The translations under genes and the position numbers were made by a program. The notes below the pieces were generated by a model. That model ran no database searches. It was not told where the DNA came from and saw only the letters and a list, made by a program, of their open reading frames with translations. A stretch of DNA of 64,000 nt, from NCBI GenBank assembly GCA_964035545.1, contig OZ037769.1, positions 3,689,001-3,753,000 of the forward strand, written 5' to 3'. Position 1 is the first letter of the stretch. Each line of letters opens with the position of its first letter. This stretch comes from Bugula neritina (Eukaryota; Bryozoa; Gymnolaemata; Cheilostomatida; Bugulidae). Positions 9,862 to 63,922 of the stretch are shown piece by piece.

Positions 9862-12800
9862 ATGGCTGAACCGGAAATGAATGAATATGAATATGTTAGT
9901 ACTGAAGATCAAAAGACTGGTACTTACCAGGGTTTATCAGCACCTCGGCCAATTGAAGCTCAGCCTGTGGGGAAAATAAACCCTCAACCTGGTCAACAAG
10001 GTGAACATCACTATGAGCAGCTGCCTACAGGGAACCAGCAGCAGTTTTTACCTCAACAAGGATATGCCCCTGCACCTGGAAATGCCTCTTATACACAACC
10101 TCCACCTGGATATGCCCCTCAAACACAGCCACCACCTGGAAATGCCTCTCATACTCAACCTCCACCTGGATATGTTCAACAAGGATATTCTGCACAACCA
10201 CTTGCTTATGGATATGTCACTGGTCAGCAGGTGATTGTACAGGCACCACCGCCTCTGCCAGTCGTAAGTTTATTTATATTATCCAGTGAATGCATACTTA
10301 CTCAATTTTTTCTTCTTAATTTGCCGCTTTTATTTTTATATGATAAAATTCTTTGAGCTATCCAAATACAAATAATATAATCATCTACAAATAGCTGAAG
10401 AATATACTAATCATTATGAAATATGAATAGGAGTATAATAACTACTATAAAACTTAATACTAAAACACCAATATAATATGAATGCCTTGTACAGAATATG
10501 AAACATGTTTGATGCATAAAAGTTGTAAGCATTTCAACAGGTCATTCTATACAGTTTTATTTGGAAGTTAAAATGACATCCATGTTTGATGAAGTATAAT
10601 ATGATGCTAGAGCTTTAAGTATAAAATTTTTAGATTTAGTTCAGAGTCAGGTTTAAATAAATTATAAATTAGACAAAGTGCCTATCTGTAGGTAACAGAA
10701 ACAAGTTCAATATGCTGGATGGTTTTTGGAATTCTGACGGCCATATGCTGCTGCCTGCCACTGGGAATTGCTGGTGCTGTCCTGGCATATTTATCTGGTG
10801 AAGATGCTAGAAGAGGAAATGCTGCTGCCTACAAGACAAAGATCTGTCAGTCTAAAGCTCTCACACTCACAGGACTAGGAATTGGGTTGCTGATCGTTAT
10901 AACTGTAGTATGTGCGGTAGGTGGCTGTTCATGTTGCATTATACAACCGTTGATCCCAAATGTATATATTATTAAACATGAAGACATTTTAACATATGCT
11001 ATTATAGAATGTTGAACATTTGTTTAATTCCTGTGTTACTTATAATTTACCATAATAACTACTTTTAATCTGAAAACCCGATAATATATCTTCATAACCT
11101 TCTTAGAATCTATATAGGTTTAATATAAATTGAGATTTTTGATTTATAGAAAGAAGAAAACTCCATTTAGTATAGGTAAAAAACAAAGTCATGCTATTTT
11201 AAAAACTGTACTTTAGTGCATTTTTTGCAATATATTTTATTATTGATCTTTTCAGATTTGCCATATTTATAATCTCCTAAATAGTTTTGTGTTCTGTCAG
11301 AGATATTCTCATCATTTTTCTATTTGAACACATCTCGAAATTGCCCAATTTCCTATAAACTCGGTTCTATCTCCGCTCTGTTCTGTTCGGGTAGCGGGTG
11401 GCTACTAGAGGCCTAGCTCAATTAGGCATCTCCACCTAACCCTGTCTTAAGTATCCTCTTCATTGAGGGAACATGACTAGAGATCTTTTCTGATTGTATC
11501 CCACCATCGATGCTTTGGGCGGTCACATGCAGTTTCTCTTTTCGTTAACTGTCATCTTATGCAATCTTCTGATATCATCTTCTTTCTTTCTTCTAATAAT
11601 ATGCAAGTCACCATTTACAGCTGATTTACTCTGTAAGTTTGTATGCTTATTATGTTTTATGTCTATGCTATTGATTCATTATTAATTGATTATCTCCATA
11701 TATCATGATATTAATTCTCTAGTTTACGATGATTATGTTTGTCAACCACTGCCTAGTAATATTTTAGAGTAACATGTGTAACTGGCATTATTGTTCAATC
11801 TTTCTTGGATTCAATATTAAATTCCTATTCTAGGGACAACTCAGAAAAAATAGGTTGTCCTTATTTGAAGGAGAAGATAATTTCCTTACACCAGCTAAAA
11901 TTGTAATGCTTGAGTTTTAGATGACAATATGGTGCATCGACTGTTATAAATAGTAAAATATTGTAGTATCTGGTACCAATATATTCTATTGGTCAAAGCT
12001 ATAGTGTCTATTCTGGAAACTCTGTTTATCCAACTTCTGGAAACTGGGGTTATCGGACTTCAACTCATGGATATCCAGGCACTCTGCCTGGTAAGTGCAT
12101 AAATGACTAATACTTTTAGGTTTTGTAAGTTGTTCATAATATGAGTGTAAAAATATCCGCTAAAATATATGTTTGTATATTACTATTAGTAAATGTTTGT
12201 TTAACATAATTTTCAAATTTGGCTTGCAAACTGCGTTAATTATACATAAATTCATTTATATTATTATAAAATCTTTTTTGTTGAATAAAGTTGGGAAATA
12301 ATATTGTCATGTACGCTATAAAAATTGTTGTTATAGCTTATTTAAATTACATATATATTCAATAATTTTATAATACAGTCAGCATTAGCATAAACATAGT
12401 TTCAATTTAGATTAAAGCAAAGATTTTAATTACAACGTTAAACGAAACAATAGGCCCCCTACCAGTTTTTAACTGTTATTTTTACTTTGAGCAGTTGGTG
12501 TGAGTTATCTCGGATGCTTTGATGACAGTGCAGTTTCTCGAGATCTTGATGGCGATGACTACGATTTTGGAGCTGGTCTTTCTGTAGAGAAGTGTACAGA
12601 CTACTGCTCTGCAAGAGGTGGGTGTAACTTTAGTTTATAGCTTTACTTCCAACTTATCTGTTATAGTGCAAACTTGCATACATTATATTAACATTCACAT
12701 TATATATGTATATTAAAGCAGCAGGTGTGACACAAACTGTAATATATTAAAACACAATGTGTCTGCTACACCTTTATGATGACAACTTCAGGTGCTCTAC

Positions 12801-13348
12801 CCTGAAAACAATTTTCGTCTCAAACACTAAATAAATAGAGTGACAGAGAGAAACCCTTTGCCTTTAACATAACTAGCACAGCACCAATTGATGATTTAGG
12901 CAATTATTTCAAATATGATACTTCTTATACTTGGCAGTAAAAAAGGAGTGTAAATTTCAGTGGATTTTAAGCCAGTTACAATTCAGAAGTTTAAATTTTG
13001 CTTAGTAATATATTAGTGATGAAATAACATGGGCTTCTTGTATAGGTGAATGGTGAGTAAAAGCTAGCCTTAGTATTAATTGCTGAGCAAACTTTAGATT
13101 ACAGTCACATGTTATGCTTCAAGAAAAAATTCATTATAATATATTTTAAAAATTTACTTATAATGTTTTTTTTCAAAGATTACTTATACGCCGGTCTACA
13201 AGATGGATATCGCTGTTATTGTGGGAAATCCTATGGTTCATACGGAGAGGTGAATCAGTACAGGTGCAGTTCTGTCTGCTCTGCTGATGGCATGGAATGT
13301 GGTGGATTTTACGCCAACTCTGTTTACAGAACTAACTATTATGGCTAA
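9862..13348 (+). CDS. Gene B: Pro-rich N-terminus, CD225 membrane domain, one WSC domain (347 aa)
   Basis: Exons 9862-10263, 10692-10916, 11967-12090, 12495-12617 and 13179-13348 (TAA 13346-13348) join in phases 0, 0, 1, 1. Residues 1-134 are Pro/Gln/Tyr-rich with two PPGY (PPxY) motifs near residues 81 and 101 and a YEQL sorting-type motif at Tyr51. Residues 135-209 are a CD225/dispanin domain: a first hydrophobic segment after SICWMVFGILTA with a CCC cluster, the basic ARRGN loop, then a second hydrophobic segment. Residues 210-250 are a Tyr/Ser/Gly linker; about 251-347 form one WSC domain. CD225 proteins (IFITMs, PRRTs) are membrane proteins with cytosolic N-terminus, placing the WSC domain outside or in the lumen. 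Unlike D-G there is no splice donor after the first WSC domain: the protein ends NYYG-stop. The start ATG has CACA before it, and MAE matches D-G. Confidence 0.85.
11335..11700. repeat. GC-richer insert in intron 2 of gene B, probable transposon fragment
   Basis: This stretch is clearly richer in G and C than the surrounding intron and has no counterpart in the equivalent intron of D-G, which suggests a foreign insert. No complete protein or terminal repeat is visible. Its identity is unknown. Confidence 0.3.
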
Positions 13349-15110: not shown

Positions 15111-17005
15111 ATGGAAAATCAAAGAAATAAACGTGCTCAGGGTTCAGGAGAGACAAAGCTTGGTCAACCTGCACAATGTTCATCTCTGTATGAACTGCAA
15201 CAATCTTCAGGGAACCAACAACATTTTGCAGATCAACAAAGATATACCCTTCCACCTGGCTATACCCCTCAAACACAGCCTCCACCTGGATCTGTTCAAC
15301 AAGGATATTCTGCACAACCACTTGCTTATGGTTATACCACTGGCCAGCAGGTGATTGTTCAGGCACCACCGCCTCTGCCAGTCGTAAGTTTATTTATATT
15401 ATCCAGTGAATGCATACTTACTCAATTTTTGTTTCTATTTTTCGGTTTTTGTTTTTATATAATGATATCCTTGAGCTAACCAAATATAAATATAATCATT
15501 TAAAAATAACAAAAGAAAACTAATAATTATGAATAGCAGTCTTACTATAAAATCTAATTGATAAACAATCCTAATATATGAATGTCTTGTAGAACGTGAA
15601 GAGTGTTTGATGCATAGGCTGTTCTATATATACAGTTCCAATTTAGGAAAAGCTCAGGTTATAGTTGCTATCACTATGAGAATCCCGTCTTTTATTCAAC
15701 TTCTGCACAAAAGCAATTATGACTAAACGCTCTTTTTTACTCAACCACTGACCTCTTGTTTATACTAAGACAGTGCTCAAACCACTAAACTATGGCTGTT
15801 TAACGCAGTTGCATTTAGAAGTTACAATAATAATAAATCTCAATACAAAATAATAGTCACCATCACTTCTCTGCAGGCTCTTATAATTAAAGAATTGTTC
15901 ATATTTAGTTCAAAGATAGATTGGATAAGGTACACATTAATATTGAAATCTAAATTGAAGAAATTGCTTATCTGCAGGTAACAGAAACAAGCTCACAACT
16001 TTGGCTGGTTGTTGGAATTCTGACGGCCATATTTCTTTGTCTGCCACTGGGAGTTGCTGGTGCTGTCCTGGCAAGTGTATCTGGTAAAGAGGCTCGACGG
16101 GGAAATCTTCTTGCCTACAACAGGAAACTCTATCATTCTAAAGTTTTCACACTCATAGGGCTAGGAATTGGGTTGGCGATATATGTTATAGTTATTCTAA
16201 TTAGAGTTTTGGTAGGTAGCTGTTTGCATATTTTTTCCCCATATAAGGAAAGTTTGTTTAACTTTTACATATATAACTTTAAGAATCAACCTAACATTTA
16301 TTACTTTGAATACAGAGAGAAATACAAACATCTATATTGATATATCTTTATAACTTCTTTAGAAAGTGGATTTATTATTACTTAGAAGACCTGAAAGTTT
16401 TGGAGTTCAGATCAGTACAGTTGGCTTACAAAATAGTGATATGTGAAAACGTGTGTCTAAATTTGTAGTTGAATGGCATCATTGTATAAAAAAACATTGT
16501 ACTATAATTTTTTATACATAAGTTTTTAATTACTCAAATATTGTATGACATTTATCTTTAAGTTTGATTACGAAAGTTTGGAAAATTTCAAATACTTCAA
16601 ATTGCAGCATTTAAATTTAAAACTACTTTTTTAATTTATAGTTTTATAATGTACTGAGAATGAAAAAAAAATTGTAATAAAATATATAAACACAATAAAT
16701 TTAGCAAAATAATTAGAGGAACTTCTTTTGCTGAATAATACAATTTGATTGAATTGAAATAAGTTTATATAGCTGAAAATAGGACATATTGCCTACAGTT
16801 GCTTTGTTCAAATGTTGTAGAAACTTCCATGGCTGCATCTATACTACTGGTAGTGGCTATGAGTTTTACGGAAGCTCTAATTATTGATTATCATATGGAT
16901 CGAGTTAGAGCAGTACAAATAAAGTTTTTTTGCTCTGCGGATGAAATGGAATGGGGACAATTTCAAACCAACTCTATTTTTACAGAGCAAACTACATTGG
17001 CTAAA
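15111..17005 (+). pseudogene. Gene C: CD225 family member with decayed WSC part
   Basis: Exon 1 (15111-15383, 91 codons) and exon 2 (15978-16211, 78 codons) are intact. They encode a short Pro/Gln-rich N-terminus with one PPGY and a CD225 domain. The splice sites and about the last 30 codons of exon 1 are nearly those of B, so C is a tandem copy of B. No linker exon or first WSC half-exon is seen. At about 16800-17005 a remnant of B's last exon survives: the CSADGMECGG region reads CSADEMEWGQ, the upstream cysteines are missing and the frame is shifted. Either C is a dying copy or it now yields only a short CD225 protein by read-through past the exon 2 donor (the frame stays open to a TGA near 16340). 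Confidence 0.65.
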
Positions 17006-20228: not shown

Positions 20229-20558
20229 GCTTCAGCTGCAGATTGAGTTTGATTATATGATTCACTGATTGTGAGCCATCAATTCGTTGACGGCTTTTCC
20301 CTACTCTTCCAGTGATTTGCATTGTTTGTTTAATATTTGCTGTTGTTCTGCCTGAAGTCTTGTGTTTATTCGGTTATGTTGAACCTGCAGCTCTTTTGAT
20401 GACTACAGTTTAATTTTGTGCTGGTGTTCTTTTGTTGTTTGTGAATTTGTCCGTTGTTTGATAAGGTCATGGATGGTCTCAGACAGCCATCTGGGATGTG
20501 TTTTGAGGGCAATGTGTCGGAGAACTAGAAACGGTTCTGCAGAAATTTTGAAAATTAT

Positions 20559-21074: not shown

Positions 21075-21164
21075 TGATGAGACAGGTTGCCAATGTTGTC
21101 AACAAACTCATTCACAAGGGTGGACTTACCACTGACAAGAAGATAAATTGCAGATTCTGTTTGT

Positions 21165-24836: not shown

Positions 24837-27800
24837 ATGGCTGAAGCACAGCCTGGGAGAAACATACCAACTCAGGTATTAAACTCCCGGCTTGGTCAAC
24901 CTCCACAAAATGAACATCTGTACCAACCACTATCTACAGAGCGCCTGCAGTTCTCACTTCAACAAAAATATGTTTCTTCATATGCATATTATATTTCTTA
25001 TACACAATCGCGAACTGAATATGGCTCTCATACACAACTACCACCACCTGAATATGCCTCCTGTACACAGCAACCACCTGAGAATGCTCAACAAGAAAAT
25101 TCTGCAGAACCATCTGCTTATGAGTTCGTCACTGGCTGGCAGATGGGTGTTCAGGACTCACGGCCTCGACCAGCTGTATGTTTATTATCTCATCCAGTGA
25201 CTAAACTCTCAGTTAAAGTTCTTTTTAATTATTCTTGATTTTATATAATAATTTATACTTGAGCTAACTAAATGCAAATATATTTATGTCATCAAATTAC
25301 TAAATATACTCATACCATTATGATAAAAATTTTATTATAATGCATGTTTTATATGAATGTTTTATACACAATACAAAATATACTTGATGAGCTAATTTTT
25401 TAAGCAGTTTTAGAAGTTACGATGCATGGCATTCAATTTTAATAGAGCAGTTTAATACCACAGCTTAATACCTGCTTATACTTAGTTCAGATACAAGTTC
25501 ACTGAAATACAATAATAAAGTCTAAAGTTAAATAAATTTTTTTAGGTAAAAGACACAAGTTCAAAACGCTGGATGATTGTTGGGATTCTAACAACCATAT
25601 TTTTTGCTCCTCTTTCTGCATTAGGAATTATGGGTGCTATCAGGGCCTTCGAGGCCGGTAATGAAGCCAAAAGGGGAAATGTTGCTGAATACAGAAAAAA
25701 AATTTATAAATCTAAAACGCTTTCACTGACAGGAATAGGACTGGGGTTGCTGCTCATTACAATCATTACAGCAGCAGAAGTAGGTGGTGCTGTTTATTAT
25801 CTTTTTTGAAATAATGAAAATTTGTTTAAATTTGACATAATTCTGACATTAACCTACATATTTAGTACTTTAAATGCAGCAGAAACCCAAAATACGTGAC
25901 ATTTTAGCAATTTTTAAAAACTGAATAAAGTATTCAAAATGTTATATCTGATAATTTTTTAAAGTTTGTCAAAAAAGTCCCCAATTTAGCACAGTTAGCT
26001 AGCGAAAAATGATATTCTAAAAGCTGTGCTTAATTTTTTCAGCTGGGTATATATCAATGTTATCTTGTTGCATTGTCATACTTGCTAAGTGTTCAACCAT
26101 ACAGAATTTCTTAATTAGTCCTCAACTATTGTATGCTCTTTGTCTTTGATATTGACAATAAAATTGTTTTAAAATTTTTTTTGAGTCACATGCAGCATTA
26201 TTTCATTTAAATTTGAAATTATCTTTTTACCCTATACTTTACTACTATACTTTATTGTAGACCTAATCATTAGATTTAACAGAAGCTTTGTAGTAAAATG
26301 ATAAATAAACTAAAAAATATGGAACAAAAATCATAACTTTCTATATACTGCATATTGTAAATTTTTCATTAACCAAAAGCAATTTATCTACGTTAGCTAA
26401 AACTTTGAGGTAAAATAGTTTTATAGTTAAAACTGTGACCTGCATGTGTTAGCTGTTAATAATATTTGGTTGTTGTAGCTTTCTAAAAAAAAATCTTCTG
26501 GAAGCTCTTCCAATGAATTTAATGTTTCCACTCCTGGATATACACAAAACCCAGTGTGTAAGTCTACGAATTATTCTCTGTATTTTGTGTGATATTTCAG
26601 TACATATGGGTTCAGCACTTTTAATGTAATTACTAGTATTTTTTATTTTTTTATAATAGTCCTAAAATGCTCAAACTAAAGTTATTGCATGTATACAGTT
26701 TTCTGTTCAATATAGCAAACAAAAATACTTATTTTAGTTGATGATTTATAGAAACTTTAGTACTTTAGTAAAATAAAATATACTATAAAAGTTTTTGTTA
26801 CAGCTTATTTAAATATACAATAATTTTACCAACTTGTCAAGTAAAATTTTATTTATATTTGAATAAAAAAATGTTTTTGATTGCATAGAATATAACACAT
26901 GTTTAACTCTATACTTCTAATTATAATTTTGAGCAGCCGATCATATTTATCTGGGATGCTTCAATGATAACATACCTAGAGATCTTAATGGTGATGACTA
27001 CAACTTTGGAGAGGATCTTTCTGTTGAGAATTGCTCCAACTACTGCTCTGAAAGAGGTGGGTGGTAACCATGGTTTATCGCAATTGATATTTTTCTGTAA
27101 GGCAGAGTGTTATATAATACAGTGAGGCAGCAGATATGACTGAAACTGTTATAATGACTCTGAGAGAAATTAACTTTAGATGTTTTATCTCAAAGATAAC
27201 TTTTGTCCAAGAACACCAGTTCAATGCAGTGACAAGAAAACATTCCTTGTGCAATTTCCATTATCTGTACCACCAACTCACTTTCAACAAACATTTTGTA
27301 AAAGAACTTTGCTCTGTTTCAAAGTCTGAATGCATGTAAATACATTATTTATTTACAGTTTTATTATAACTAGAAAATAACTTGTTGTTTAGAGAAAAAA
27401 AACTAAGCAACAATTTAAATTAAATGCAATCACACTTTGTCTGTGGAATATGTTTGTGGAATGTATTTCAAAACATGTGCACACATTGTGTATGTTTGTT
27501 AGGTTACAAATACGCTGGTCTAAAAGATGGATTCCTTTGTTCATGTGGGACATCATATGGTTCATATGGAGAGGTGGACCAGGATGAGTGCAATTCTGTC
27601 TGTTCTGCTGATGGCATGGAATGTGGTGGATTTTACAGCAACTCTGTTTACAGAACAAACTACATTGGTTTGTAATTTCACAATAAACACTTAATTTGAA
27701 ATTATTTGTTATAAACTAAGTTGCTTCTGAGTTCATAGTACCAGTAGCTTGTTGAGCTCAGCTATGAATTAGCTCAATAGGGTACGCATCAAAGTTACCC

Positions 27801-28718
27801 TTACTCATGTAGGGTCACTAAAAAGGTTTTAAATTGCAGCATAGGATTAGTTTGTTTTGATCTCTAAATTATATATTGCGGTTTCATTATCATCTTCAAA
27901 CAAGTTTAAATATAAGTTATTTATAGACATTTAGTTTAAAAATCAGAATTGTTTTTAAACTATTCTACTGATCATTTATTAATCTTCTATGACTCAGTGT
28001 ATATTACCATTTTTCTAACAGAGAAATTCACTGCTTTCAACGATAAGAAAAAAATAATATAAAAAGTTAGTTTGATAAACAATTGAAACTATCAGGTCTT
28101 ATCAAAATGAATGCAACTGCATGTAACATTTATTTAGGTTGTTTAATGAAGTTGAGCTCGCAGCATCTTCATTTTGATTTTGCAGTGGTTCTTTGAAGTT
28201 TTCTAATAATAACAATCTCACATTTGTAATGTTTTTCTCTCTCTTCCAAGATTTGGAGCAAAAAGTCAACCCAGCTTCATGTCTAGTCTTAGTTTTAATC
28301 AACTGTTCCAGTAGGTTTAAGTATATTTCATGTTTTGCAGGTTGCTACAAAGACTATCATGAGACATTTGATTATCATATTGATTTACCAGTTGATGAGG
28401 TAACTCCAAGTGGTTGCACAAAACACTGTAAGACTGATGGTGAGTTACCCGATGTATTTCTAACTTTTTTGTTTACCTATATATAAAAGTGTTGAAATAA
28501 TTTAGAATGAAGGAATTTACTTTTTCAAAATACTCCGTCTACTTCTTGCAGGATATCGTTTTGCTGGACTTTGGTCTGGAAGGTATTGTTACTGTGGAGA
28601 TCACTTCGACAGATTCGATGAAGTTCCAGATGAAGAATGCAAATGGAGGTGTCCTAGTAACTCTCAACTCAGCTGTGGCGGAGCTCTTAGACAATCTGTT
28701 TATAACACTTTTAATTAG
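24837..28718 (+). CDS. Gene D: Pro-rich N-terminus, CD225, two WSC domains (400 aa)
   Basis: Exons 24837-25175, 25546-25779, 26479-26557, 26937-27056, 27503-27667, 28341-28439 and 28552-28718 (TAG) join in phases 0, 0, 1, 1, 1, 1. Residues 1-113: Gln/Pro-rich, with YQPL (YxxL type) near residue 29 and one PPEY. Residues 114-191: CD225 domain (SKRWMIVGILT, EAKRGN loop, hydrophobic LTGIGLGLLLI); the usual Cys cluster is replaced by FFAPLS. About 192-217: Ser-rich linker. About 218-312 and 313-400: two WSC domains with the eight-Cys pattern. Donor GTTTGT after exon 5 is weak and is followed by an in-frame stop and AATAAA, allowing a one-WSC isoform. The 3' LTR of a retroelement lies 122 bp upstream and may affect expression. 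The last intron is about 0.55 kb shorter than in E. Confidence 0.86.
27668..27687 (+). promoter_or_regulatory. Possible intronic polyadenylation site in gene D
   Basis: If the weak donor at 27668 is skipped, the frame reads Gly-Leu-stop (TAA 27673-27675) and AATAAA follows at 27682-27687. The same stop and signal occur in E (35525-35539), F (48051-48065) and G (57895-57909). Confidence 0.45.
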
Positions 28719-45217: not shown

Positions 45218-48200
45218 ATGGCTGAAGCACAGCCTGGGAGAAACATACCAACTCAGGTATTAAACTCCCGGCTTGGTCAACCTCCACAAAATGAACATCT
45301 GTACCAACCACTATCTACAGAGCGCCTGCAGTTCTCACTTCAACAAAAATATGTTTCTTCATATGCATATTATATTTCTTATACACAATCGCGAACTGAA
45401 TATGGCTCTCATACACAACTACCACCACCTGAATATGCCTCCTGTACACAGCAACCACCTGAGAATGCTCAACAAGAAAATTCTGCAGAACCATCTGCTT
45501 ATGAGTTCGTCACTGGCTGGCAGATGGGTGTTCAGGACTCACGGCCTCGACCAGCTGTATGTTTATTATCTCATCCAGTGACTAAACTCTCAGTTAAAGT
45601 TCTTTTTAATTATTCTTGATTTTATATAATAATTTATACTTGAGCTAACTAAATGCAAATATATTTATGTCATCAAATTACTAAATATACTCATACCATT
45701 ATGATAAAAATTTTATTATAATGCATGTTTTATATGAATGTTTTATACACAATACAAAATATACTTGATGAGCTAATTTTTTAAGCAGTTTTAGAAGTTA
45801 CGATGCATGGCATTCAATTTTAATAGAGCAGTTTAATACCACAGCTTAATACCTGCTTATACTTAGTTCAGATACAAGTTCACTGAAATACAATAATAAA
45901 GTCTAAAGTTAAATAAATTTTTTTAGGTAAAAGACACAAGTTCAAAACGCTGGATGATTGTTGGGATTCTAACAACCATATTTTTTGCTCCTCTTTCTGC
46001 ATTAGGAATTATGGGTGCTATCAGGGCCTTCGAGGCCGGTAATGAAGCCAAAAGTGGAAATGTTGCTGAATACAGAAAAAAAATTTATAAATCTAAAACG
46101 CTTTCACTGACAGGAATAGGACTGGGGTTGCTGCTCATTACAATCATTACAGCAGCAGAAGTAGGTGGTGCTGTTTATTATCTTTTTTGAAATAATGAAA
46201 ATTTGTTTAAATTTGACATAATTCTGACATTAACCTACATATTTAGTACTTTAAATGCAGCAGAAACCCAAAATACGTGACATTTTAGCAATTTTTAAAA
46301 ACTGAATAAAGTATTCAAAATGTTATATCTGATAATTTTTTAAAGTTTGTCAAAAAAGTCCCCAATTTAGCACAGTTAGCTAGCGAAAAATGATATTCTA
46401 AAAGCTGTGCTTAATTTTTTCAGCTGGGTATATATCAATGTTATCTTGTTGCATTGTCATACTTGCTAAGTGTTCAACCATACAGAATTTCTTAATTAGT
46501 CCTCAACTATTGTATGCTCTTTGTCTTTGATATTGACAATAAAATTGTTTTAAAATTTTTTTTGAGTCACATGCAGCATTATTTCATTTAAATTTGAAAT
46601 TATCTTTTTACCCTATACTTTACTACTATACTTTATTGTAGACCTAATCATTAGATTTAACAGAAGCTTTGTAGTAAAATGATAAATAAACTAAAAAATA
46701 TGGAACAAAAATCATAACTTTCTATATACTGCATATTGTAAATTTTTCATTAACCAAAAGCAATTTATCTACGTTAGCTAAAACTTTGAGGTAAAATAGT
46801 TTTATAGTTAAAACTGTGACCTGCATGTGTTAGCTGTTAATAATATTTGGTTGTTGTAGCTTTCTAAAAAAAAATCTTCTGGAAGCTCTTCCAATGAATT
46901 TAATGTTTCCACTCCTGGATATACACAAAACCCAGTGTGTAAGTCTACGAATTATTCTCTGTATTTTGTGTGATATTTCAGTACATATGGGTTCAGCACT
47001 TTTAATGTAATTACTAGTATTTTTTATTTTTTTATAATAGTCCTAAAATGCTCAAACTAAAGTTATTGCATGTATACAGTTTTCTGTTCAATATAGCAAA
47101 CAAAAATACTTATTTTAGTTGATGATTTATAGAAACTTTAGTACTTTAGTAAAATAAAATATACTATAAAAGTTTTTGTTACAGCTTATTTAAATATACA
47201 ATAATTTTACCAACTTGTCAAGTAAAATTTTATTTATATTTGAAAAAAATGTTTTTGATTGCATAGAATATAACACATGTTTAACTCTATATTTCTAATT
47301 ATAATTTTAAGCAGCCGATCATATATATCTGGGATGCTTCAATGATAACATACCTAGAGATCTTAATGGTGATGACTACAACTTTGGAGAGGATCTTTCT
47401 GTTGAGAATTGCTCCAACTACTGCTCTGAAAGAGGTGGGTGGTAACCATGGTTTATCGCAATTGATATTTTTCTGTAAGGCAGAGTGTTATATAATACAG
47501 TGAGGCAGCAGATATGACTGAAACTGTTATAATGACTCTGAGAGAGATTAACTTTAGATGTTTTATCTCAAAGATAACTTTTGTCCAAGAACACCAGTTC
47601 AATGCAGAGACAAGAAAACATTCCTTGTGCAATTTCCATTATCTGTACCACCAACTCACTTTAAACAAACATTTCGTAAAAGAACTTTGCTCTGTTTCAA
47701 AGTCTGAATGCATGTAAATACATTATTTATTTACAGTTTTATTATAACTAGAAGATAACTTGTTGTTTAGAGAAAAAAAACTAAGCAACAATTTAAATTA
47801 AATGCAATCACACTTTGTCTGTGGAATATGTTTGTGGAATGTATTTCAAAACATGTGCACACATTGTGTATGTTTGTTAGGTTACAAATACGCTGGTCTA
47901 AAAGATGGATTCCTTTGTTCATGTGGGACATCATATGGTTCATATGGAGAGTTGGACCAGGATGAGTGCAATTCTGTCTGTTCTGCTGATGGCATGGAAT
48001 GTGGTGGATTTTACAGCAACTCTGTTTACAGAACAAACTACATTGGTTTGTAATTTCACAATAAACACTTAATTTGAAATTATTTGTTATAAACTAAGTT
48101 GCTTCTGAGTTCATAGTACCAGTAGCTTGTTGAGCTCAGCTATGAATTAGCTCAATAGGGTACGCATCAAAGTTACCCCTACTCATGTGGGGTCACTAAA

Positions 48201-49555
48201 AAGATTTTAAATTGCAGCATAGGATTAGTTTGTTTTTATGTCTAAATTATATATTGCGGTTTCACTATCATCTTCAAACAAACAAGTTTAAAAATAAGTT
48301 ATTATTAGACATGTAGTTTACGAATCAGACCTGTTTTTAAACTATTCTACTGATCATTTAGTAACTTTCTATGACTCAGTATATTATCATTTTTCTAACA
48401 GAGAAAATCGCTACTTCCAATGATCAGAAAAAATTAATATATAAAAAGTTAGTTTGATAAACAATTAAAACTATCAGGTCTTATCAAGATGAATGCAAAT
48501 GTAACATTTATTTGGGTTGTATAATGAAGTTGAGCTCGCAGCATCTTCCTTTTGATTTTGCAGTGGCTCTTTGAAGTTTTCTAATAATAACAATCTCACA
48601 TTTGTATTGTTTTTCTCTCTCTTCTAAGTTTTGGAGCAAAAAAGTCAACACAACTTTATGTCTGGTCTTAGTTTTGATCAATTATTTTAGTTATAGTAGG
48701 CTTAAGTATCTAGTGTTTTACAGGTTGCTATAAAGACATTCATGAGACATTTGATTATTATATTGATCGGCCAGATAATGACGTAACTCCAAGTAGTTGC
48801 ACAAAACAGTGTAAGACTGATGGTGAGTTACCCTATTTTTTTCTAACTTTTTTGTCATAACGACTTGGTCATTGCTTAGAATTTGACCCTGGGCTATAAA
48901 TTAATTGCCCCACCAGAAGTTGAACTTTAAACCTCAGACCTTGGCTTGCAAACACTACACTGCATGAGCTTTTTGGGGAGTCGTCACTTCAGCATTACAC
49001 TGATAGGTTAATCTGTTTGTGTAGCTCTAGCATGTTGCTAAATCTAGAAAAAAATAGAATCAGCAACTAGCTACGCTAGGTTATAAGTATTATGTCACTG
49101 AATTTTGTTTTTCTTTATTTTTTTGTTTTAGTTCAAATTTATTAGTCCTGCGCCAAATAAATATATGCAATCTTTAAATTCAAAAGCTTGCAATAAAAAA
49201 GCTTGAAAAATAGAAATGCCTTAGCTTTAAAGTATTTAGTTTATTATAGCTACAGTTCTGAATGCAAATAGATTTATATATATATAAATATATATACATA
49301 TATATTTATATTTTTTTTTTCAAATTGTTGAAACTATTTAGAATGAAGGAGTTTAGTTTTTCGAAAGTATTTAGTCTACTTCTTGCAGAATATCGTTTTG
49401 CTGGACTTTGGTCTGGAAGGTATTGTTACTGTGGAGATCACTTCGACAAATTCGATGAAGTTCCAGACGAAGAATGCAAATGGAGGTGTCCTAGTAACTC
49501 TCAACTCAGCTGTGGCGGAGCTCTTAGACAATCTGTTTATAACACTTTTAATTAG
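45218..49555 (+). CDS. Gene F: Pro-rich N-terminus, CD225, two WSC domains (400 aa), D/E chimera
   Basis: Exons 45218-45556, 45927-46160, 46860-46938, 47315-47434, 47881-48045, 48724-48822 and 49389-49555 (TAG) in phases 0, 0, 1, 1, 1, 1. Exons 1-5 are almost identical to D (for example Ser for Arg in the EAKSGN loop, Leu for Val in WSC1). From about 48230 the intron and downstream sequence follow E. Exon 6 is more divergent than either (KDIHETFDYYIDRPDNDV region). The exon 6/7 junction codes Glu where D, E and G have Gly, because the acceptor is CAG/AA instead of CAG/GA. One PPEY, one YQPL, no Cys cluster in the first hydrophobic segment. As in D, a 3' LTR sits 122 bp upstream. Confidence 0.86.
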
Positions 49556-53748: not shown

Positions 53749-53816
53749 TGGTCCCTGTGGTTTCACTGGTTAGCACAATTGCTTGCAAGCCTGAGGTCTT
53801 TAGTTCTAATCCTAGT
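53749..53816 (+). repeat. tRNA-like repeat upstream of gene G
   Basis: GTCCCTGTGGTTTCACTGG (A-box part) to AGTTCTAATCC (B-box-like), 79 bases before the start codon; not interrupted by a retroelement. Confidence 0.6.
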
Positions 53817-53894
53817 ATAGTAAGAGAAATTATTTTGTATCCTCAAAAACACAAATGAAGTATTTGCATATTCCGTAGTTACTCCTGTAGTACA

Positions 53895-56800
53895 ATGGCT
53901 GAAGCACAGCCTGTGGGAAACATATCTACCGAGGTAATAAACCCTCAGCCTGGTCAAGCTCCACAAAGTGAACATCTGTACCAACCACTATCTACAGAGC
54001 ACCTGCAGTTTTCACTTCAACAAAGATATGCTTCTCCATATGCATATTATGCCTCTTATACACAACATCCACCTGAATATGCCCCTCATACACAACTTCC
54101 ACCTGATTATGCCCCTCATACACAGCCACCACCTGAATATGCCCTTCATACACAGCCACTACCTGAATATGCCCCTCATACACAGCCACCACCTGGATAT
54201 GCCCCTCATACACAGCCACCACCTGGATATGCCCCTCATACACAGCCACCACCTGGATATTCCCCTCATACACAGCCACTACCTGGATATGCTTATCACA
54301 CACAGCCGCCACCTGGAAATGCCTCTCATACACAGCAACCACCTGGAAATTTTCAACAAGGATCTTCTGCACAACCACATGTTTATGAATATGTCACTGA
54401 CCCACAAGTGGTTATTCAGGCACCACCGCCTCTGCCAGTGGTGAGTTTATCTTACCTGGTGACTACACTTTTATTATATAGTTAAAGTTTTTTTTAGTTT
54501 TTTTTCTTATAATAGTCTATACTTGAACTGACAAAATGCAAATATATTATGTTAATGACAAATGACTAAGAATATTCATACTATGGTGGACAAATTTACT
54601 TATTGGCCCATGTTTTATATTAATTTCTTATACATAATAAAAAAATACTTACTGATGACCAATTTTTTTTTCAAACAGTTTTTTGTAGAAGCTATAATAT
54701 GATATTTAATTTCAATGAAATACTTTAATACATGCTTATACTTAATACAGGGACAAGTTTACTGAAATAGAATAATAAAGAATAAGTTAAAAAAAATATT
54801 CATTTGTAGATAAAGGACACGAATTCAAAATGCTGGATGGTTGTTGGAATCTTGACAGCCATAGTTTGTCTTCCATGTGGACTTGGTGCTGCCGCCATAG
54901 CACGTGCAGCTGGTAAAGATGCTAAAAAAGGCAATGCTGCTGCCCACAAGAAAAATATCCGTCAATCTAAAGCTCTCTCACTGACGGGAATAGTGCTGGG
55001 GTTACCGTTCATTACAGCTGTTGTAATGGTTACGGTAAGTGATGGCTGTTTTTTAAATAATGAAAGTTTGTTTAAATGTTCCATAATTTAAGCTCTAACC
55101 TGCATATTTAGTAAATTACATGAAGAAGAAAATCCAAAATCCTTAAGCATAGTAATTTCAAAAATTAAATGAAATATTCAATAAGTTATATAACTGGTGA
55201 TTTTTAAGCTTTGTCAGAAAAAATGAAATCCCCCATTTAACTCAGTCAGCTGACAAAATGATATTCCAAAAACTGTGCAATTTTGTTGCATTCTCATAGT
55301 TGGTTAACTAGTGGTTTACAATACAGAAGTCCTCAATTACTGCAGTACTCAACTAATGTATGCTATTTGGCTTTGATATATTGACAATAAAACTGTTTTA
55401 AATTTGTACGAGTCACATCGGAAATTATATTTTATTTGAATTCAAACTTTTTTCCTTGTACTTTGATGTATTGACACTCAACAAAAGCTTTTTAGTTTAA
55501 AAATATAACTGCATGAGAAAATATAAAGTAAAATTTATAAGTTTTATAACTCGTAACGTACTTTTACTAACCAAGCTAAACATTTGACTTAAGAAAAAAG
55601 AACTTGGCACCCCTGTGAAAAACCTTTGATAGAAAAGGTTTTTTTAGTAAAAACGGGCTAAAAACTTATTCATATGCGACACAGGAGCAATTAGGACTGG
55701 ATACTCTTCTTAACATCACCATAATGGTCTTTGTCCAGGCTTGAACCCATAATTTCATGCTTTCTAGAAAAAACGCTCCAACTCCTAGACTACATGGCTG
55801 CTTTCTCAAAACTTCTCTGTAACAGTTTTAGCTGAATTATTGCTATCTTTTAGTTGTTTATGGATCATATTACTCAATTTAATACACATGCACTGAAAAT
55901 CTCCAGTTTTTAGCTACTTTTTGCAATTTAACTGCTAATGAACATGGGTTTTTTGCCCAAAACTAGTAAAATATCAATAAATATACACCTAAATAATCAA
56001 GGTTCTTCCTAATTTTACTTGATTTCCCATGTTTTTTTCTATCTATTTAACTAATTATTACTAAAAAACCGTAACTGTCTGCAATCAAAAGTAGCTAAAT
56101 AAATAAAAAAAACTATGGGAAATTAAGAAAAAATAAAAGGAACCTTGATTATTGGAATGTATTTATTGATATTTTACTATTTTTGGGTAAAAACCCATGT
56201 TAATTAGCAGCTAAATTGTAAAAAAATAGCTAAAAACTAGAGATTTCCAGTGTGTACTATAAATTAGGTAAAATGACCTTCATAATATTTAGTTGTTTGA
56301 GCGCTCTGCACTGACACCTTCTGGCAAGGGTGACTCTGAATATGTTGAAAGCTCTGGCAGTGAAGATACAGTTTCTGCATTTGTTGAAAGCTCTACCAGT
56401 GAACATACCACAGTTTCCACTCCTAGATATAAGCAGAATCAGACATGTAAGTATAAAACTCACACAATTTTATAGTGGCCATCCTTGTGAGAAACCCCTG
56501 GCGTAAAGGGTTTTTTGTTAAAGCGGGCTATAAGGACTTATTTAAATGAGGGACAAGAGCAATTATGACTGGATGCTCTTCCTAACATCACCATAATGGC
56601 ATTTGTCCGGGCTCAAACCCATGACTTTGTGTTTGCTACGAAAACGCTCTAACCCCTAGACCATGACTGATCCTTAGACACAGTAAATATACAACTTATT
56701 TCTTTTACTTTTGTGTGATATTGCAGTGCATATGAATTTAAAAAATTTAATGTAGTTGCTAGTATTTTTAAATCAATTTATAATAGTCCTAAATTGCTCA

Positions 56801-59218
56801 AACTAAAGTTATTTTATACAGTTTTCTGTTCAATATTATAGATAACAAAAATACCTATAATAGTTGCTGATTTATTGAAACTAACTTAACCATAATCTTT
56901 AATAAAGTAACACATACCACAAAGGTTTTTGTTACAGCTTTTTTAAAGACAAATTCACCAACTTATTAAAAAAAATTTATAATTGTTTTTATTTGCAAGA
57001 ATATATTTAACCGCCTTATATCTCTAATTATAATTTTGAGCAGCCGATTATATATATCTCGGATGCTTTGAGGATAACATACCTAGAGATCTTAATGGTG
57101 ATGACTACAACTTTGGAGAGGATCTTTCTGTTGAGAATTGTACCAACTACTGCTCTGAAAGAGGTGGGTGATAACCATGGTTTATCGCAATTGATATTTT
57201 TCTGTAAGGCAAAGTGTTATGTAAAATAATTGCCCCCGCACTGGGGTTCGAACCACAGACCTCCGGCTTACAAGCAGGCGCCCTAACCAATTGCGCTACA
57301 GGGGCTTCAGGGGCTGCAGGATTCCAAACAACATTTTATATAATATAGTGAGGCAGCAGGTACGACTGAAACTGTTATACTGACTCTGAAATAACAACTT
57401 CAGATGTTTTATCTCAAAGATAACTTTTGTCCAAGAACACCAGCTTGATGCAGTGACAAGAAGACATTGTTTGTCCAATCGCATTACCTACACCGCCAAC
57501 TCACTTTAAACAAACACATTTCATAAGAGAACTTTGCTCTGTTTTAAAGAATGAATGCATGTAAATTCATTACTTATTCACAGTCATATTATAACTAGAA
57601 TCTAACTTGTTTAGAGAAAAAAAAACTAAGCAAAAATTTAAATTATGCAATCACACTTTGTCTGCAGAATATGATTTGCGGAGTGTATTTCAAAACATGT
57701 GCAGATGTTGTGCATATCTGTTAGGTTACAAATACGCTGGTCTACAAAATGGATTCCTCTGTTCTTGTGGGACATCCTATGGTTCATACGGAAAGGTGGA
57801 TCAGGATGAGTGCAGTTCTGTCTGCTCTGCTGACGGCTTAGAATGTGGTGGATTTTACACCAACTCTGTTTACAAAACAAACTACATTGGTTTGTAATTT
57901 TACAATAAACACTCAATTTGAAAGTAATTGTTATAAACTACATTGCTTTTGAGTTTATTATACCAATAGCCTGCTGACCTTAGCAATGAATTATATTAAA
58001 TCACTTTTTTGTGCTGAGTAACCTTCAATCGTACGCATCACAGTTAACCCTACTCATATAGGGTCTTTAAAAAAAGTTTTAATGCGTAGTATATATGGAG
58101 TAGCTTGTTTTTATGTCTAAATTACATATTTTAGCTTCATTATCATCCTAAAACAAACAGGTTTAAATATAAGTTATTAGACATGAAGTATCGAAATCAG
58201 ATTTCTTTTAAAACTATTCAACTGCGATCATTTAGCTCAAGTTATTGAACTTTTATGACTCAGTATATTATCATTTTTCTACCAGAGAAAATAATTGTTT
58301 TCAACAAGCAAAACAAACTATTATAAAAGTTAATTAGATAAACAATTAAAACTATCAGGTTTTATCAAAATGAATGCAGCGGTATTATTTGCTTAGGCTA
58401 TTTAATACAATTGGGTTTGGAGCATCTTCATTCTAATTTTGCAGCAGCTTTTTGAATTAGTGTTCTATACTATTAATCTCACATTTGCAATCTTTTTTTC
58501 TCTCTCATCTGAGTTTCGGTGACCTATTTCAGTAAGAAACTCATGTTTTGCAGGTTGTTTCGAAAATGATGATGTGGGATTTGATTATCAAGTTAATTTA
58601 CCATATTATGAGATTACTCCAAGTAGTTGCACAAAACATTGTTTAAAGGATGGTGAGTTAATCACTGTATTTCTAACTATTGTGTCATAGCTGCTTGAAT
58701 ATAACCCTGGGCTTTCTTAGTAGTTGTCATTTCAACATTGTTGGACTAACAAAGTTTGTAGCATGCTTATCACTCTAAAATTTAAAACCTTTACCAACTA
58801 TAGCTATTCTACTTTGTACATGTAATTTACTGAAATATTTCTCTCTGCTTATTTTTTTCTTAAAATTTAGTAGTCGTGTGCCAAATAAATAAATACAACT
58901 TCTAAAATAAAACAAATTAAAAGATAAAAATTTCTCAGCTTTAGAGTATTTAATTTATTATAGCGCAGTCCTAAATTTATGCAAATGAACATTTGGCATC
59001 TTCTCAGTTAATAAAATAAAACAAAGCACTAAACGGTCACTTTTGTTCAATTACATTGATTGCTTTAACTGGTTGAAAAATGTTGATATATATTTTATTT
59101 TATAATTGACATAATAATATAACTGCTCATTATTTCCAAAAATTATAATAATTACAATATTATTTGACACCTAACATTTAAAAAGCTGCTAATACCTTTT
59201 ATATCAATTCAGTTTACC

Positions 59219-59250
<32 letters not shown>

Positions 59251-59440
59251 CTAAGTATTCTGTCTATTTCTTGCAGGATATCTTCTTTCTGGACTCGGGT
59301 CTGGGAGGTATTGTTACTGTGGAAATTACTTCTACGGATTTGTAAGGTCGAATGATGAATGCAGTTCGGGGTGTCCTGTTGACTCTCAACTCAGCTGTGG
59401 GGGACCTCTTCGACAATCTGTTTATAAAACTTTTATCTAA
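53895..59440 (+). CDS. Gene G: long PPxY-repeat N-terminus, CD225, two WSC domains (490 aa)
   Basis: Exons 53895-54440, 54810-55034, 56293-56446, 57044-57163, 57725-57889, 58554-58652 and 59277-59440 (TAA) in phases 0, 0, 1, 1, 1, 1. Residues 1-182: YQPL at 29-32, then a 10-residue repeat (type PPPGYAPHTQ) from about 58 to 152 with six PPxY, two LPxY and two PPGN units. Residues 183-257: CD225 domain with SKCWMVVGILT, cysteines in VCLPCG, the DAKKGN loop and a second hydrophobic stretch. Residues 258-308: a Ser/Glu-rich linker twice as long as in D, with an internal VESS(G/T)SE duplication. About 309-403 and 404-490: two WSC domains. The best-preserved member by all criteria. Intron 3 holds several repeats and a hairpin element. 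Confidence 0.88.
54055..54354 (+). repeat. Coding 30-bp tandem repeat in gene G exon 1
   Basis: About ten units of 30 bases, typified by CCTCATACACAGCCACCACC followed by TGGATATGCC; the three central units are almost identical in DNA, showing recent expansion. E has about six units, D and F one or two, B three. Confidence 0.85.
55605..55800. repeat. Dispersed repeat in gene G intron 2
   Basis: Divergent copy of the GACTGGATGCTC repeat (begins CCCTGTGAAAAACC, contains GGACTGGATACTCTT). Confidence 0.55.
55883..56255. mobile_element. Foldback (hairpin) MITE-like element in gene G intron 2
   Basis: Two arms of about 160-170 bases are imperfect reverse complements: words such as TTTTTAGCTA, AACATGGGTTTTT, TAGTAAAATATCAATAAATA and AATCAAGGTTC on the left return in inverted form on the right, with a short centre near 56070. 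Transcribed, it would make a long hairpin. No coding capacity. Confidence 0.75.
56480..56670. repeat. Dispersed repeat in gene G intron 3
   Basis: Another copy of the GACTGGATGCTC repeat, starting just after the exon 3 donor (CCTTGTGAGAAACCCC) and ending near CTAGACCATGACTG. Confidence 0.55.
57232..57305 (-). repeat. tRNA-like repeat in gene G intron 4 (best-preserved copy)
   Basis: On the minus strand, seven acceptor pairs form (GCCCCTG with CGGGGGC, one G-T), a GCGC/GCGC D stem, A box TAGCGCAATTGG and B box GGTTCGAACCC. The region that should be the anticodon stem does not form five pairs in any register tried, so a SINE head is favoured; a real tRNA cannot be fully excluded. Confidence 0.55.
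59222..59250. repeat. (TA)n microsatellite before the last exon of gene G
   Basis: About 14 TA units lie 25 bases upstream of the acceptor of exon 7, replacing the usual polypyrimidine context there. Confidence 0.85.
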
Positions 59441-60919: not shown

Positions 60920-63900
60920 ATGGCTTCAAGACTGAGCCCTGTTGAGACACCCGAGGTCCCGGAACTTTCTGAGAAAGAAAAGCTGTCACTGTCTCTGAAT
61001 CGTCTCCCACCCATAAACAGTTCCCAGCAAACTAACCCAACACTGTTCCTTGCTCAGCCAGTGGCCACTCAACAAGCCAACGGCCAGCCAGCTTACATCC
61101 TACAGCCAAATGGCCAATTGGAGTATATGTTACAAGCCAATGGCCAATCAGCTAATGGTCAGCCGGGTACATCTAATGTTTTACAAGGCCAACAAGTTTT
61201 TGCTACAACATCCTTTACCGGAGAAATGACTCAGCAGTCCGTCTACATTCTCAGACCTCAGCCATTGTCAGCCGTATGTTGTATACCAATGAAGTCAGCG
61301 GTGTATATATATTAGTAAAGTCAGCAGTGTATATATATTAGTAAAGTCAGCAGTGTATATATTAGTAAAGTCAGCAGTGTATATATATTAGTAAAGTCAG
61401 CAGTGTATATATTAGTAAAGTCAACAGTATATATATTAGTAAAGTCAGCAGTGTATATATTAGTAAAGTCAGCAGTATATATATTAGTAAAGTCAGCAGT
61501 ATATATATTAGTAAAGTCAGCAGTGTATATATTAGTAAAGTCAGCAGTATATATATATTAGTAAAGTCAGCAGTGTATATATTAGTAAAGTCAGCAGTAT
61601 ATATTAGTAAAGTCAGCAGTGTATATATTAGTAAAGTCAGCAGTGTATATATATATTAGTAAAGTCAGCAGTGTATATATTAGTAAAGTCAGCAGTGTAT
61701 ATATATATTAGTAAAGTCAGCAGTGTATATATTAGTAAAGTCAGCAGTGTATATATATATTAGTAAAGTCAGCAGTGTATATATTAGTAAAGTCAGCAGT
61801 GTATATATATATTAGTAAAGTCAGCAGTGTATATATTAGTAAAGTCAGCAGTGTATATATATATTAGTAAAGTCAGCAGTGTATATATTAGTAAAGTCAG
61901 CAGTGTATATATATATTAGTAAAGTCAGCAGTGTATATATTAGTAAAGTCAGCAGTGTATATATATATTAGTAAAGTCAGCAGTGTATATATTAGTAAAG
62001 TCAGCAGTGTATATATATTAGTAAAGTCAGCAGTGTATATATATTAGTAAAGTCAGCAGTATATATATTAGTAAAGCCAGGAGCATTAAGTATTAGTAGA
62101 GTAAGTTGTATGTTACACATTCATAGAGTATCAGGAGGTTATATATTTGTAAAGTCAGCGACTAACAATAGACTATTAGTCAGCTGCATGGTGACAATTA
62201 CATATTCCTATAGTTTGAAGTTGGTAATACTGTACTTTTGGTAGAATAGTCAGTTATAGTTAATGTGTTATTGTAGCAATATGGTAGTTGCACTTTAGTT
62301 AATGTAAAGCCAGTGATATTGTGTTTTAGTTCTGTCACATTGGAAATTGTAATAACTTGATAAACAGAATCATTTACATTATTATACTTGAAAGATGGTT
62401 TCTTTTAACTAGTAATTTAGCAGTTCAACTAAAAAAATCTTCATGTGTTCCCACAGCTACAGTGTTCACTGTAGCAATAATTCTTTTTAATTATAAGTTG
62501 TTAATATTGTGTTATATATGTGTTAGATGATGTCTGCCACAATAACACTGGGTGTGGTGATTCCTATCTGCATGCATTTCTGTTTTATAAGTCGAATCAA
62601 ACAAAGCCAATCAATCGAATAGTAGCTAGAATAACTTTTTTATTTTTATAAAGCATGCATACCATGACATTTGAAAACATCCTAATCACTTTAATTGAAA
62701 TGATGATTTTTAAACAATGTTTGTATAGTAACGCAGTCATCGTCACATTTTATATATTGGTTATGTGTTTGTAGTCTGAACACGCTGCCTCTAAGACCTG
62801 GGTTATTGTTGGCATCCTATCAACCATCTTCTGCTGCTTTCCCCTGGGACTTGCCGGTACTATTATAGCTCACATGTCTAGGGAAGATGCTGCTAGAGGT
62901 GATGCCGGCAATCACAGACGTAGACTGTGTCAGGCTAAAGCTCTCACGGGGACGGCTATTGGAATTGGGTGTTTGGCCCTCATTGCCTTAGCAGTTAGTG
63001 TGAGTAGCAAATTTATCAGTAGGAGTTGAGTATTTGTTATTTCATATAATTACGCTATGATATACAATTAAGGGTGCTTTTGAATTCCCTAAGCGTATCG
63101 AATCCGAAAGCGCCTTTAATGAAACAGATAACCATTATATAGAATAAACAACCACATTTATATTGTATTCAAGTTATTACCCTAGTTGTGTAATAACATT
63201 ATGACAGTTGTTTTCTTTAATAAATACGCAATACTAAAAAATCATGTTAACTTTTCTAACTTATCTTCAGTTTTACATTTACTAGACTGAAAAATGTTCA
63301 CATTTCTTTTGTAGCTTGGACTAATTTTTGGACTACTTCACAACCAGGGAAATGATTATGAGTATGAACCCATTCCTAGTTTTACCTGGACAGGTTAAGA
63401 ATTTAATTACAATGCATTATAAGGCTTCTACAGGTTAATAGCTAAACATAGCAAAATGCTGATTACATTTTAGCTTGCCGAAACATAAAATTTTTAACTT
63501 GAGAACCTACTAATGTCTAAGAATCAATAGAGAAGAATATTTTGTTTATCTTTCTTTACTGTCTGTCTCTCTTTGTGTTTGTCTGTCTGTATTTATGTCT
63601 GTCTGTTGTCTTTATGTCTCAATATTTTGCATGTCATTAGTCCCATATCATGAAACCAGCTCACCAACTAACTTCGCAACCATTGGGCTGATTAAATACA
63701 TGTACGTATATAGATGACAGTGTGGGCCAGTTTCTGTACAATTGTTTCCTAGGTGTTTGTGGTCAAACCTCACTTTTTAAAGGCAGCAATACTTTGTAGA
63801 TAAGGGAATCTACCTAGGTTGCTATGAAGATGATCAGTTTCACAGAGATGTTTCTGGTATTAACACGGAGTTTGAAGACGATAATGATGTTGATAAATGT

Positions 63901-63922
63901 GTCTATTACTGTGCATCACATG
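60920..63922 (+). CDS. Gene H (3' partial): divergent CD225-WSC family member
   Basis: Exons 60920-61273, 62775-62999, 63315-63393 and 63800-63922 join in phases 0, 0, 1 and run off the window. The N-terminus (118 residues) is Gln/Asn-rich with an NGQ-type repeat (ANGQPAYILQPNGQ) and has no PPxY. Residues 119-193 are a canonical CD225 domain: TWVIVGILSTIFCCFPLG, a RGDAG loop and a second hydrophobic segment. The linker is short and acidic/aromatic (NDYEYEPIP). The fourth exon (GCYEDDQFHRDV ... KCVYYC) is the first half of a WSC domain, and its second half must lie beyond 64000. It is the most divergent member in the window but shares every intron phase. Intron 1 holds a minisatellite beginning about 18 bases after the donor. 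Confidence 0.82.
61291..62080. repeat. Minisatellite in gene H intron 1
   Basis: About 30 tandem copies of a 22-28-base unit built on TTAGTAAAGTCAGCAGTG plus a variable TATA stretch. From about 61620 to 62010 short and long units alternate, making a dimeric higher-order repeat of about 50 bases. Confidence 0.92.

Follow-up and report, generated by a model that had tools for sequence, protein, structure and literature searches.

The stretch analysed here, 64,000 nucleotides of the genome of the cheilostome bryozoan Bugula neritina (C5:3689001-3753000, contig OZ037769.1), holds a tandem series of genes, A to H, in which a CD225 (IFITM/dispanin-type) exon is typically followed by a linker exon and by exons that each code for half of a WSC domain. 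We call this stretch the window, and gene coordinates are window positions unless marked C5. Exons were detected by template searches and spliced manually, and the models were compared with nine array-type Bugula proteins returned from a protein collection (P0001 to P0009). These are other B. neritina gene models, and those carrying EB796 names presumably come from assembly ASM1079987v2. The genes in the window are as follows.

Gene A, 336..5331, plus strand: WSC exons 336-506, 923-1012, 1450-1623, 2243-2371, 3040-3201, 4264-4368 and 5147-5331.
Gene B, 9862..13348, plus strand: Pro-rich exon 9862-10263, CD225 10692-10916, linker 11967-12090, WSC halves 12495-12617 and 13179-13348.
Gene C, 15111..16981, plus strand: Pro-rich exon to 15383, CD225 15978-16211, WSC remnant only, 16931-16981.
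Gene D, 24837..28718, plus strand: exon 1 24837-25175, CD225 25546-25779, linker 26479-26557, first WSC 26937-27056 and 27503-27667, second WSC 28341-28439 and 28552-28718.
Gene E, 32797..37122, plus strand: exon 1 32797-33255, CD225 33607-33840, linker 34510-34588, first WSC 34970-35089 and 35355-35519, second WSC 36196-36294 and 36956-37122.
Gene F, 45218..49555, plus strand: exon 1 45218-45556, CD225 45927-46160, linker 46860-46938, first WSC 47315-47434 and 47881-48045, second WSC 48724-48822 and 49389-49555.
Gene G, 53895..59440, plus strand: exon 1 53895-54440 (six PPxY motifs), CD225 54810-55034, Ser/Thr-rich linker 56293-56446, first WSC 57044-57163 and 57725-57889, second WSC 58554-58652 and 59277-59440.
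Gene H, 5' part, 60920..63922, plus strand: exon 1 60920-61273, CD225 62775-62999, linker 63315-63393, first WSC half 63800-63922.

An initial annotation had claimed seven CD225 exons for genes B to H, with WSC exons in B and D to H; we find all seven, at 10692, 15978, 25546, 33607, 45927, 54810 and 62775, and WSC half-domain exons after the linker exon in those six of the seven genes. Manual splicing reproduced the splice sites and the exon phases 0,0,1,1(,1,1) given there. The seven-gene array it described stands as far as the window reaches, but the real array is more than three times as long as the window, which truncates two genes. Gene A enters with the C-half of its first WSC and three full WSC domains, while the parts before them fall outside: the linker, the first WSC half and, about 1 kb before the window starts, the CD225 exon; gene H runs past the end, and its remaining WSC exons (four C-halves) lie beyond it. 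The frame of B is open throughout, with the stop TAA at the end of exon 13179-13348, and that of F, a recent duplicate of D, is open from ATG to stop. Gene C is degenerate, its WSC exons being lost apart from the short remnant near 16931-16981, and E is likely a pseudogene or truncated because of an in-frame TGA at 33247-33249, close to the end of exon 1. In D to G, exon 5 can read into a TAA directly after an unusual donor (ATTG/gtttgt), and forms with one and with two WSC domains are both possible; the donor is spliced in P0001 and P0002, which go on to a second WSC.

The WSC identity is beyond doubt. Against a Pfam cut-off of 27.8 bits (PF01822), B, G, F and A score 52.8, 90.9, 108.1 and 141.4 bits, respectively, and H, with 16.4 bits from the first half in the window, reaches 70.9 with the C-half from beyond it. 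The 141.4 bits of gene A rule out chance cysteine-rich open reading frames. Each WSC has eight cysteines in the four constructs considered, with eight after the helix in the one-WSC gene B and 16 in the two-WSC G, H and L117. The closest solved chain is Kremen-1 (45.5 bits, E 8.8e-11), yet none of the 14 proteins scanned (5 + 9) had a Pfam match to Kringle or CUB, and we reject orthology with Kremen on these grounds.

The CD225 unit is likewise real, but divergent. Gene H (33.8 bits, 34.5 in its joined model) and P0006 (37.5) pass the Pfam cut-off of 27.1 bits (PF04505), and CD225 is the best or second-best Pfam family in B, F, G and H. A profile built from the CD225 exons of seven array genes (A, B, C, D, E, G and H) matched one credible solved chain, the dispanin PRRT1, with E 5.8e-5, which reached 2.5e-11 once three other Bugula CD225 exons were added. 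Hydropathy shows two hydrophobic regions in all four proteins plotted (B, H, L117 and G), separated by a loop with five to seven Lys or Arg residues. Both helices are contained in one exon in genes B to H, with no splice site in the loop.

Exon phases bear on whether the two domains belong to one protein. Splice profiles trained in the window were used to score hidden Markov model matches of at least 20 bits outside it. CD225 exons there have a phase 0 acceptor in 10 of 12 cases and a phase 0 donor in equally many; the acceptor is in phase 1 in 15 of 24 WSC N-halves and 36 of 40 C-halves, and the donor in 18 of 24 and 24 of 40, respectively, the last exons ending in a stop. Since CD225 ends in phase 0 and WSC starts in phase 1, the two cannot be joined directly in frame, and a linker exon running from phase 0 to phase 1 is required. 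Such linkers were found by hand in A, B and D to H. We also scanned 16 genes for the best exon starting in phase 0, with splice profiles that excluded the linker's own sites, and a phase 1 ending scored best in nine of them. The linkers of distant members align at a Tyr-rich stretch, most of them also with a Trp shortly before the WSC, and that of A continues to VGKWS ahead of the donor, like P0006. Hydrophobic residues open the linker of H, I71, K129 and L117, as if to prolong the second helix. An independent start for the WSC part was sought as an ATG-bearing exon that ends in phase 1 and has a signal-peptide-like core; none was found in 10 of 11 CD225-WSC gaps, and one candidate lies in B.

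Gene models from the same species point in the same direction. P0003 (71% identical to gene B) and P0006, the model similar to gene A, join CD225, an in-frame linker and WSC, and P0007 does likewise with the first WSC half only. P0006 is above both Pfam cut-offs in a single protein (37.5 bits for CD225, 48.2 for WSC), and so is H in its joined model (34.5 and 70.9). A search with gene G in a collection of 5.8 billion sequences returned five proteins, all from B. neritina, with 51-77% identity over parts of the query. The 2020 B. neritina assembly was annotated by AUGUSTUS with transcriptome hints, according to the accessible part of its description (PMC7576161). The Ensembl annotation of the tzBugNeri2.1 assembly has 33,722 transcripts and draws mainly on transcriptomic data (PMC11480708), and it may already include transcripts across the predicted junctions.

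Several observations weigh against this joining of the two domains. The linker scan narrowly preferred a phase 0 ending in D, E and F and a phase 2 ending in M260, gave no phase 1 candidate at threshold in G and H, which were modelled by hand, and scored other endings higher in A, whose linker was assigned by hand with P0006 as a guide. In P0001 and P0004 the two domains are joined with the linker skipped and the first WSC half missing wholly or in part; P0002 and P0005 translate the linker and the first WSC half in a different frame, and P0008 and P0009 end after CD225. CD225 itself stays under the cut-off in most of the proteins scanned (B 25.0, P0003 23.0, P0007 19.7, P0004 19.3, P0001 16.5, F 16.1 and G 15.1 bits). 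An AlphaFold2 model of P0003 from five sequences was too poor to be used (mean pLDDT 38.4), and the evidence for the fusion comes from genomic sequence and gene models. Nevertheless, the initial reading of a single membrane protein with a WSC ectodomain is upheld by phases, linkers, the lack of a signal-peptide-like start in nearly all gaps and gene models, and we consider it very probable that the array genes encode CD225-linker-WSC proteins as single polypeptides.

Exon profiles from the window and from four Bugula proteins, run over C5:3600001-3840000, gave 117 matches. The array as counted here combines the window with L013-L030, and the second locus described below comprises L031, L032, L034 and L035; L009-L012 are outside the analysis. 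The array spans about 220 kb and includes 19 CD225 exons, at window coordinates -82087 to 129422. WSC exons lie 3' on the same strand of 16 of them, the exceptions being -66547, -56472 and 15978 (gene C), and in these 16 units the first WSC match is 526-2018 bases downstream of the CD225 exon. Two genes (117142 and 129422) are on the minus strand, as are their WSC exons, meaning that the units are inverted whole. This co-orientation of the two kinds of exon also favours a single protein. Array units have one to four WSC C-halves; the unit at 71048 shows five matches, two of which are pieces of one domain. WSC matches on the opposite strand occur beyond the units at 117142 (two) and -82087 (one), and no CD225 match falls among the four WSC pairs at 96324-105631.

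A second locus at C5:230-276 kb, 3.3 Mb from the array, adds three CD225-WSC units in both orientations.

C5:260023, plus strand: CD225 exon, then four WSC C-halves.
C5:270209, plus strand: CD225 exon, then four WSC C-halves.
C5:243338-243526 (L035), minus strand: weak CD225 exon, then ten WSC C-half matches, one of them weak.

The CD225 exon of the last unit scores 20.0 bits with the array profile and 19.2 with Pfam, where CD225 is still the top family. PPSYEPPSYE repeats and the divergent CD225 share one open frame there, ahead of about ten WSC C-halves, the largest such WSC run that we saw. Genome-wide, at least 33 CD225 and 145 WSC matches were found at E 0.001. Among the matches listed at that threshold, no CD225 lies near the WSC arrays on C3, C4 and C8, nor any WSC near a seven-copy CD225 cluster on C4; the exon scan of L033, part of that cluster, gave three CD225 matches and no WSC. 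Within the reach of these searches, CD225 and WSC are paired only at the array and at the second locus, both on C5.

The initial description of a fast-changing tandem array is supported by the sequence evidence. Over 7,623 aligned bases, retroelement included, genes D and F are 98.5% alike, while to the right of this alignment similarity is 90% between D and F and 93% between E and F, a pattern that unequal exchange or conversion would give. The retroelement copies inside the D/F duplication, at 20529-24157 and 41529-44539, have protease, reverse transcriptase and integrase-like frames and appear Ty3/Gypsy-like by our own reading without a family search. Gene G is distant from D, E and F in CD225 (synonymous divergence, dS, 0.70-0.76) but close to them in the first WSC (dS 0.13-0.24), and the genes therefore look like mosaics.

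Three known systems offer comparisons. The array proteins resemble the dispanins (IFITM, PRRT1, PRRT2) in their Pro-rich N-terminal tail, two hydrophobic regions, basic loop and profile match to PRRT1, in a CC motif present in A, B and H, and possibly in PPxY motifs, seen in most tails and known from IFITM3. To our knowledge, dispanins end shortly after the second helix, whereas in the array proteins a folded, probably extracellular WSC part follows it. The available portion of a dispanin survey also describes a conserved splice site between the two helices, with exceptions listed, unlike the single exon that holds both helices here (PMC3282796). With Kremen-1 and Kremen-2, receptors of Kringle-WSC-CUB composition, the array proteins have in common the eight-cysteine WSC and a membrane-bound ectodomain, but they differ in having no Kringle or CUB match, tandem WSC domains and a tandem gene array. 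Kremen is a type I membrane protein, and the predicted membrane orientation of the array proteins is opposite. Fungal Wsc sensors, which have an N-terminal WSC on a type I protein, share the succession of WSC, stalk and membrane anchor; they are from a different kingdom and CD225 is what sets the array proteins apart.

The initial annotation knew of no described system of this make-up. We found no description of a CD225-WSC fusion in the open-licence full-text literature, where matches to IFITM together with WSC looked unrelated by title and abstract, no bryozoan genome paper with a WSC domain in the same literature, and no mention of such a fusion in the accessible part of the dispanin survey (PMC3282796). 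The architecture is, however, already in public databases, unrecognised: A0A7J7JVQ3 (P0006) and A0A7J7J722 (P0003), both from B. neritina, have the same CD225-linker-WSC order and are named KREMEN1 and LIPI after other families, in a family whose gene models vary. The name KREMEN1 is misleading for such a protein. Among the matches listed in the protein collection (E 0.01 or better), in a search that relies on shared five-residue words and is limited in sensitivity, only Bugula proteins held both domains; single parts matched one stickleback CD225 protein and two further WSC proteins, one of which, P0010, is similar to the WSC found in the -41849 unit. Restriction to Bugula is not established by this, as this is the only animal genome scanned. 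What we describe is thus a new architecture made from two known families, undescribed as far as searched and larger than first noted.

Domain content and order, splice phases and tandem and inverted duplication are read from the sequence itself; the working of the proteins is proposed by analogy. A cytosolic tail rich in Pro, Gln and Tyr, with PPxY in most members, would precede the CD225 unit, which would act as membrane anchor and stand in for a signal peptide and transmembrane segment. A short or Ser/Thr-rich stalk would then hold the WSC domains, one to four in number and about ten in one second-locus gene, on the cell exterior or inside the endosome lumen, the C-terminus being out as in dispanins. 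Placed after the second helix, the eight-cysteine WSC would reach an oxidising compartment, where disulfides can form, with no need of a signal peptide. In IFITM3 and PRRT-type proteins the tail is cytosolic and the C-terminus outside, as reported in later work on IFITM3 and PRRT2, and we regard the C-terminus-out topology as probable for the array proteins. It should be set against this that the dispanin survey, in the part available, places the loop between the two membrane helices inside the cell (PMC3282796), which would leave the C-terminus out but put the tail out too, contrary to a role for PPxY.

PPxY occurs in 16 of the 20 tails tested and is absent in A, H, I71 and N270. Fewer than 0.3% of shuffled sequences attain the motif count of E, of G, of K129, of L117 or of the 243-kb gene, and 3-5% attain that of B and J83. 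Less favourably, 6-37% of shuffles did as well as the tails with a single PPxY, all nine of them; the tails, besides, are related to one another, and the upstream ones were chosen with a Pro and Gln filter. In the accessible part of a study of IFITM3, PPxY is needed for ubiquitination by NEDD4 and overlaps an endocytic signal, and its authors note a disagreeing earlier study (PMC4532365). By analogy, PPxY may recruit NEDD4-type ligases through their WW domains and so set surface level and endosomal uptake, a proposal that we make tentatively.

The WSC ectodomain would bind variable ligands, glycans or proteins, of microbial or self origin. WSC binds glucan in some fungal proteins (PMC9024836, in the part consulted), and in Kremen it forms part of a protein-binding face that binds Dickkopf together with the Kringle (PMC5014086, likewise in part). 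The family would then consist of surface or endocytic recognition receptors whose turnover is controlled by the tail. We lean slightly towards the combination of this architecture and topology with a surface protein that binds ligands in the broad sense; that the ligands are foreign or other cells is conceivable, and we stop just short of favouring it. An immune role is something we infer, and the lectin-like activity and defence system suggested in the initial annotation stay putative. In a freshwater bryozoan, a CD225/dispanin transcript was 2.18-fold down in parasite-infected zooids (PMC7460649, in the section available), which is weak evidence, as the transcript may be that of an ordinary dispanin; the part available of another study of the same animal mentioned none of the terms sought.

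The proposed receptors would matter in three respects. A dispanin/IFITM-type membrane unit serving as anchor of a folded extracellular part is a use that we did not find in the literature searched. The array would also give bryozoans a concrete, clustered candidate recognition gene family, and we know of no described one in this phylum. Finally, it links IFITM and Kremen-type WSC, both of which have been studied around virus entry in vertebrates.

The fusion could be real and its role structural, adhesive or developmental, for instance in attachment to body-wall or cuticle polysaccharide or in a Kremen-like control of signalling, instead of recognition of foreign or other cells. The bryozoan body wall is chitin-containing and mineralised. 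The nearest solved WSC is that of Kremen-1, a Wnt co-receptor (PMC5014086), and fungal Wsc proteins work at cell walls (PMC9024836), both according to the portions available. On the other side, the Kringle and CUB of Kremen were not found in the proteins scanned, and a large, copy-variable, mosaic tandem array would be unusual for a developmental regulator; we consider such a role rather unlikely.

Still less expected is an array that is mostly decaying, with copies made by unequal exchange, few expressed genes and variety without a special role. In its favour, genes C and E carry damage, no WSC is seen in the units at -66547 and -56472, and the recent D-to-F duplication contains a retroelement. 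Selection was gauged by pairwise NG86 omega on short exons of the related paralogues B, D, E, F and G, with no significance test. Values for the linker (0.50-2.03), exon 1 (0.47-1.10) and the second WSC (0-0.96 overall, 0.56-0.96 in six comparisons with G) count against the main reading: these parts appear relaxed or fast-evolving, and are near-neutral in several pairs. CD225, however, has omega of 0.47-0.74 (nine of ten pairs defined), and for the first WSC halves 16 of the 19 defined values fall at 0.25-0.6, with 0, 0.78 and 0.91 for the remaining three. Genes B, D, F and G are moreover open throughout in our hand models, and the same architecture recurs in models from another assembly of the species, among them the relative of gene B, P0003.

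Very improbable is a third account, in which short dispanins made of exon 1 and CD225 and ending by intron read-through alternate with separate secreted WSC genes: read-through from the CD225 exon of D does meet a stop after about a dozen residues, giving a normal-looking dispanin, and each domain is found without the other (CD225 in gene C, at -66547 and -56472 and in P0008 and P0009; WSC at 96324-105631), but signal-peptide-like WSC starts are missing from all but one gap, the linker exons are related and their phases match, P0003, P0006 and P0007 join both domains in frame, and the pairing recurs at the second locus in both orientations.

For the fused CD225-WSC receptors, a more specific and decidedly speculative extension is that this colonial animal uses the array as a self/non-self locus. 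Dispanin-anchored WSC receptors would then differ in copy number and in mosaic ectodomains between colonies and lineages and serve allorecognition at colony borders or discrimination of symbionts from pathogens. Symbionts are a known feature of B. neritina.

Large WSC exon arrays without nearby CD225 among the listed matches lie at C3:15150000-15895000, C4:23060000-23082000 and C8:5811000-5888000, and WSC looks greatly expanded in B. neritina. Within the window, AG acceptor-like sites are found about 6-16 bases 5' of the ATGs at 9862, 24837, 53895 and 60920, as if each gene had an intron in its 5' untranslated region or were trans-spliced. The first intron of gene H holds a long tandem repeat (61267-62159) of units of about 50 bases, rich by eye in TATATA and GTAAAGTCAGCAG. 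Other ectodomain fusions were sought in eight CD225 loci (L001-L008, about 3.1 kb each) by judging stop-to-stop frames of at least 50 amino acids by eye, with no domain search on the flanks, and seven of the eight showed no ectodomain. The eighth, L006 (C4:17306816-17309998, in the seven-copy C4 cluster), has a His/Gly-rich frame, HGGHRGPGGHGG, at 2257-2637 in gene orientation, downstream of the CD225 exon, and may be a further dispanin whose C-terminal part is unusual.

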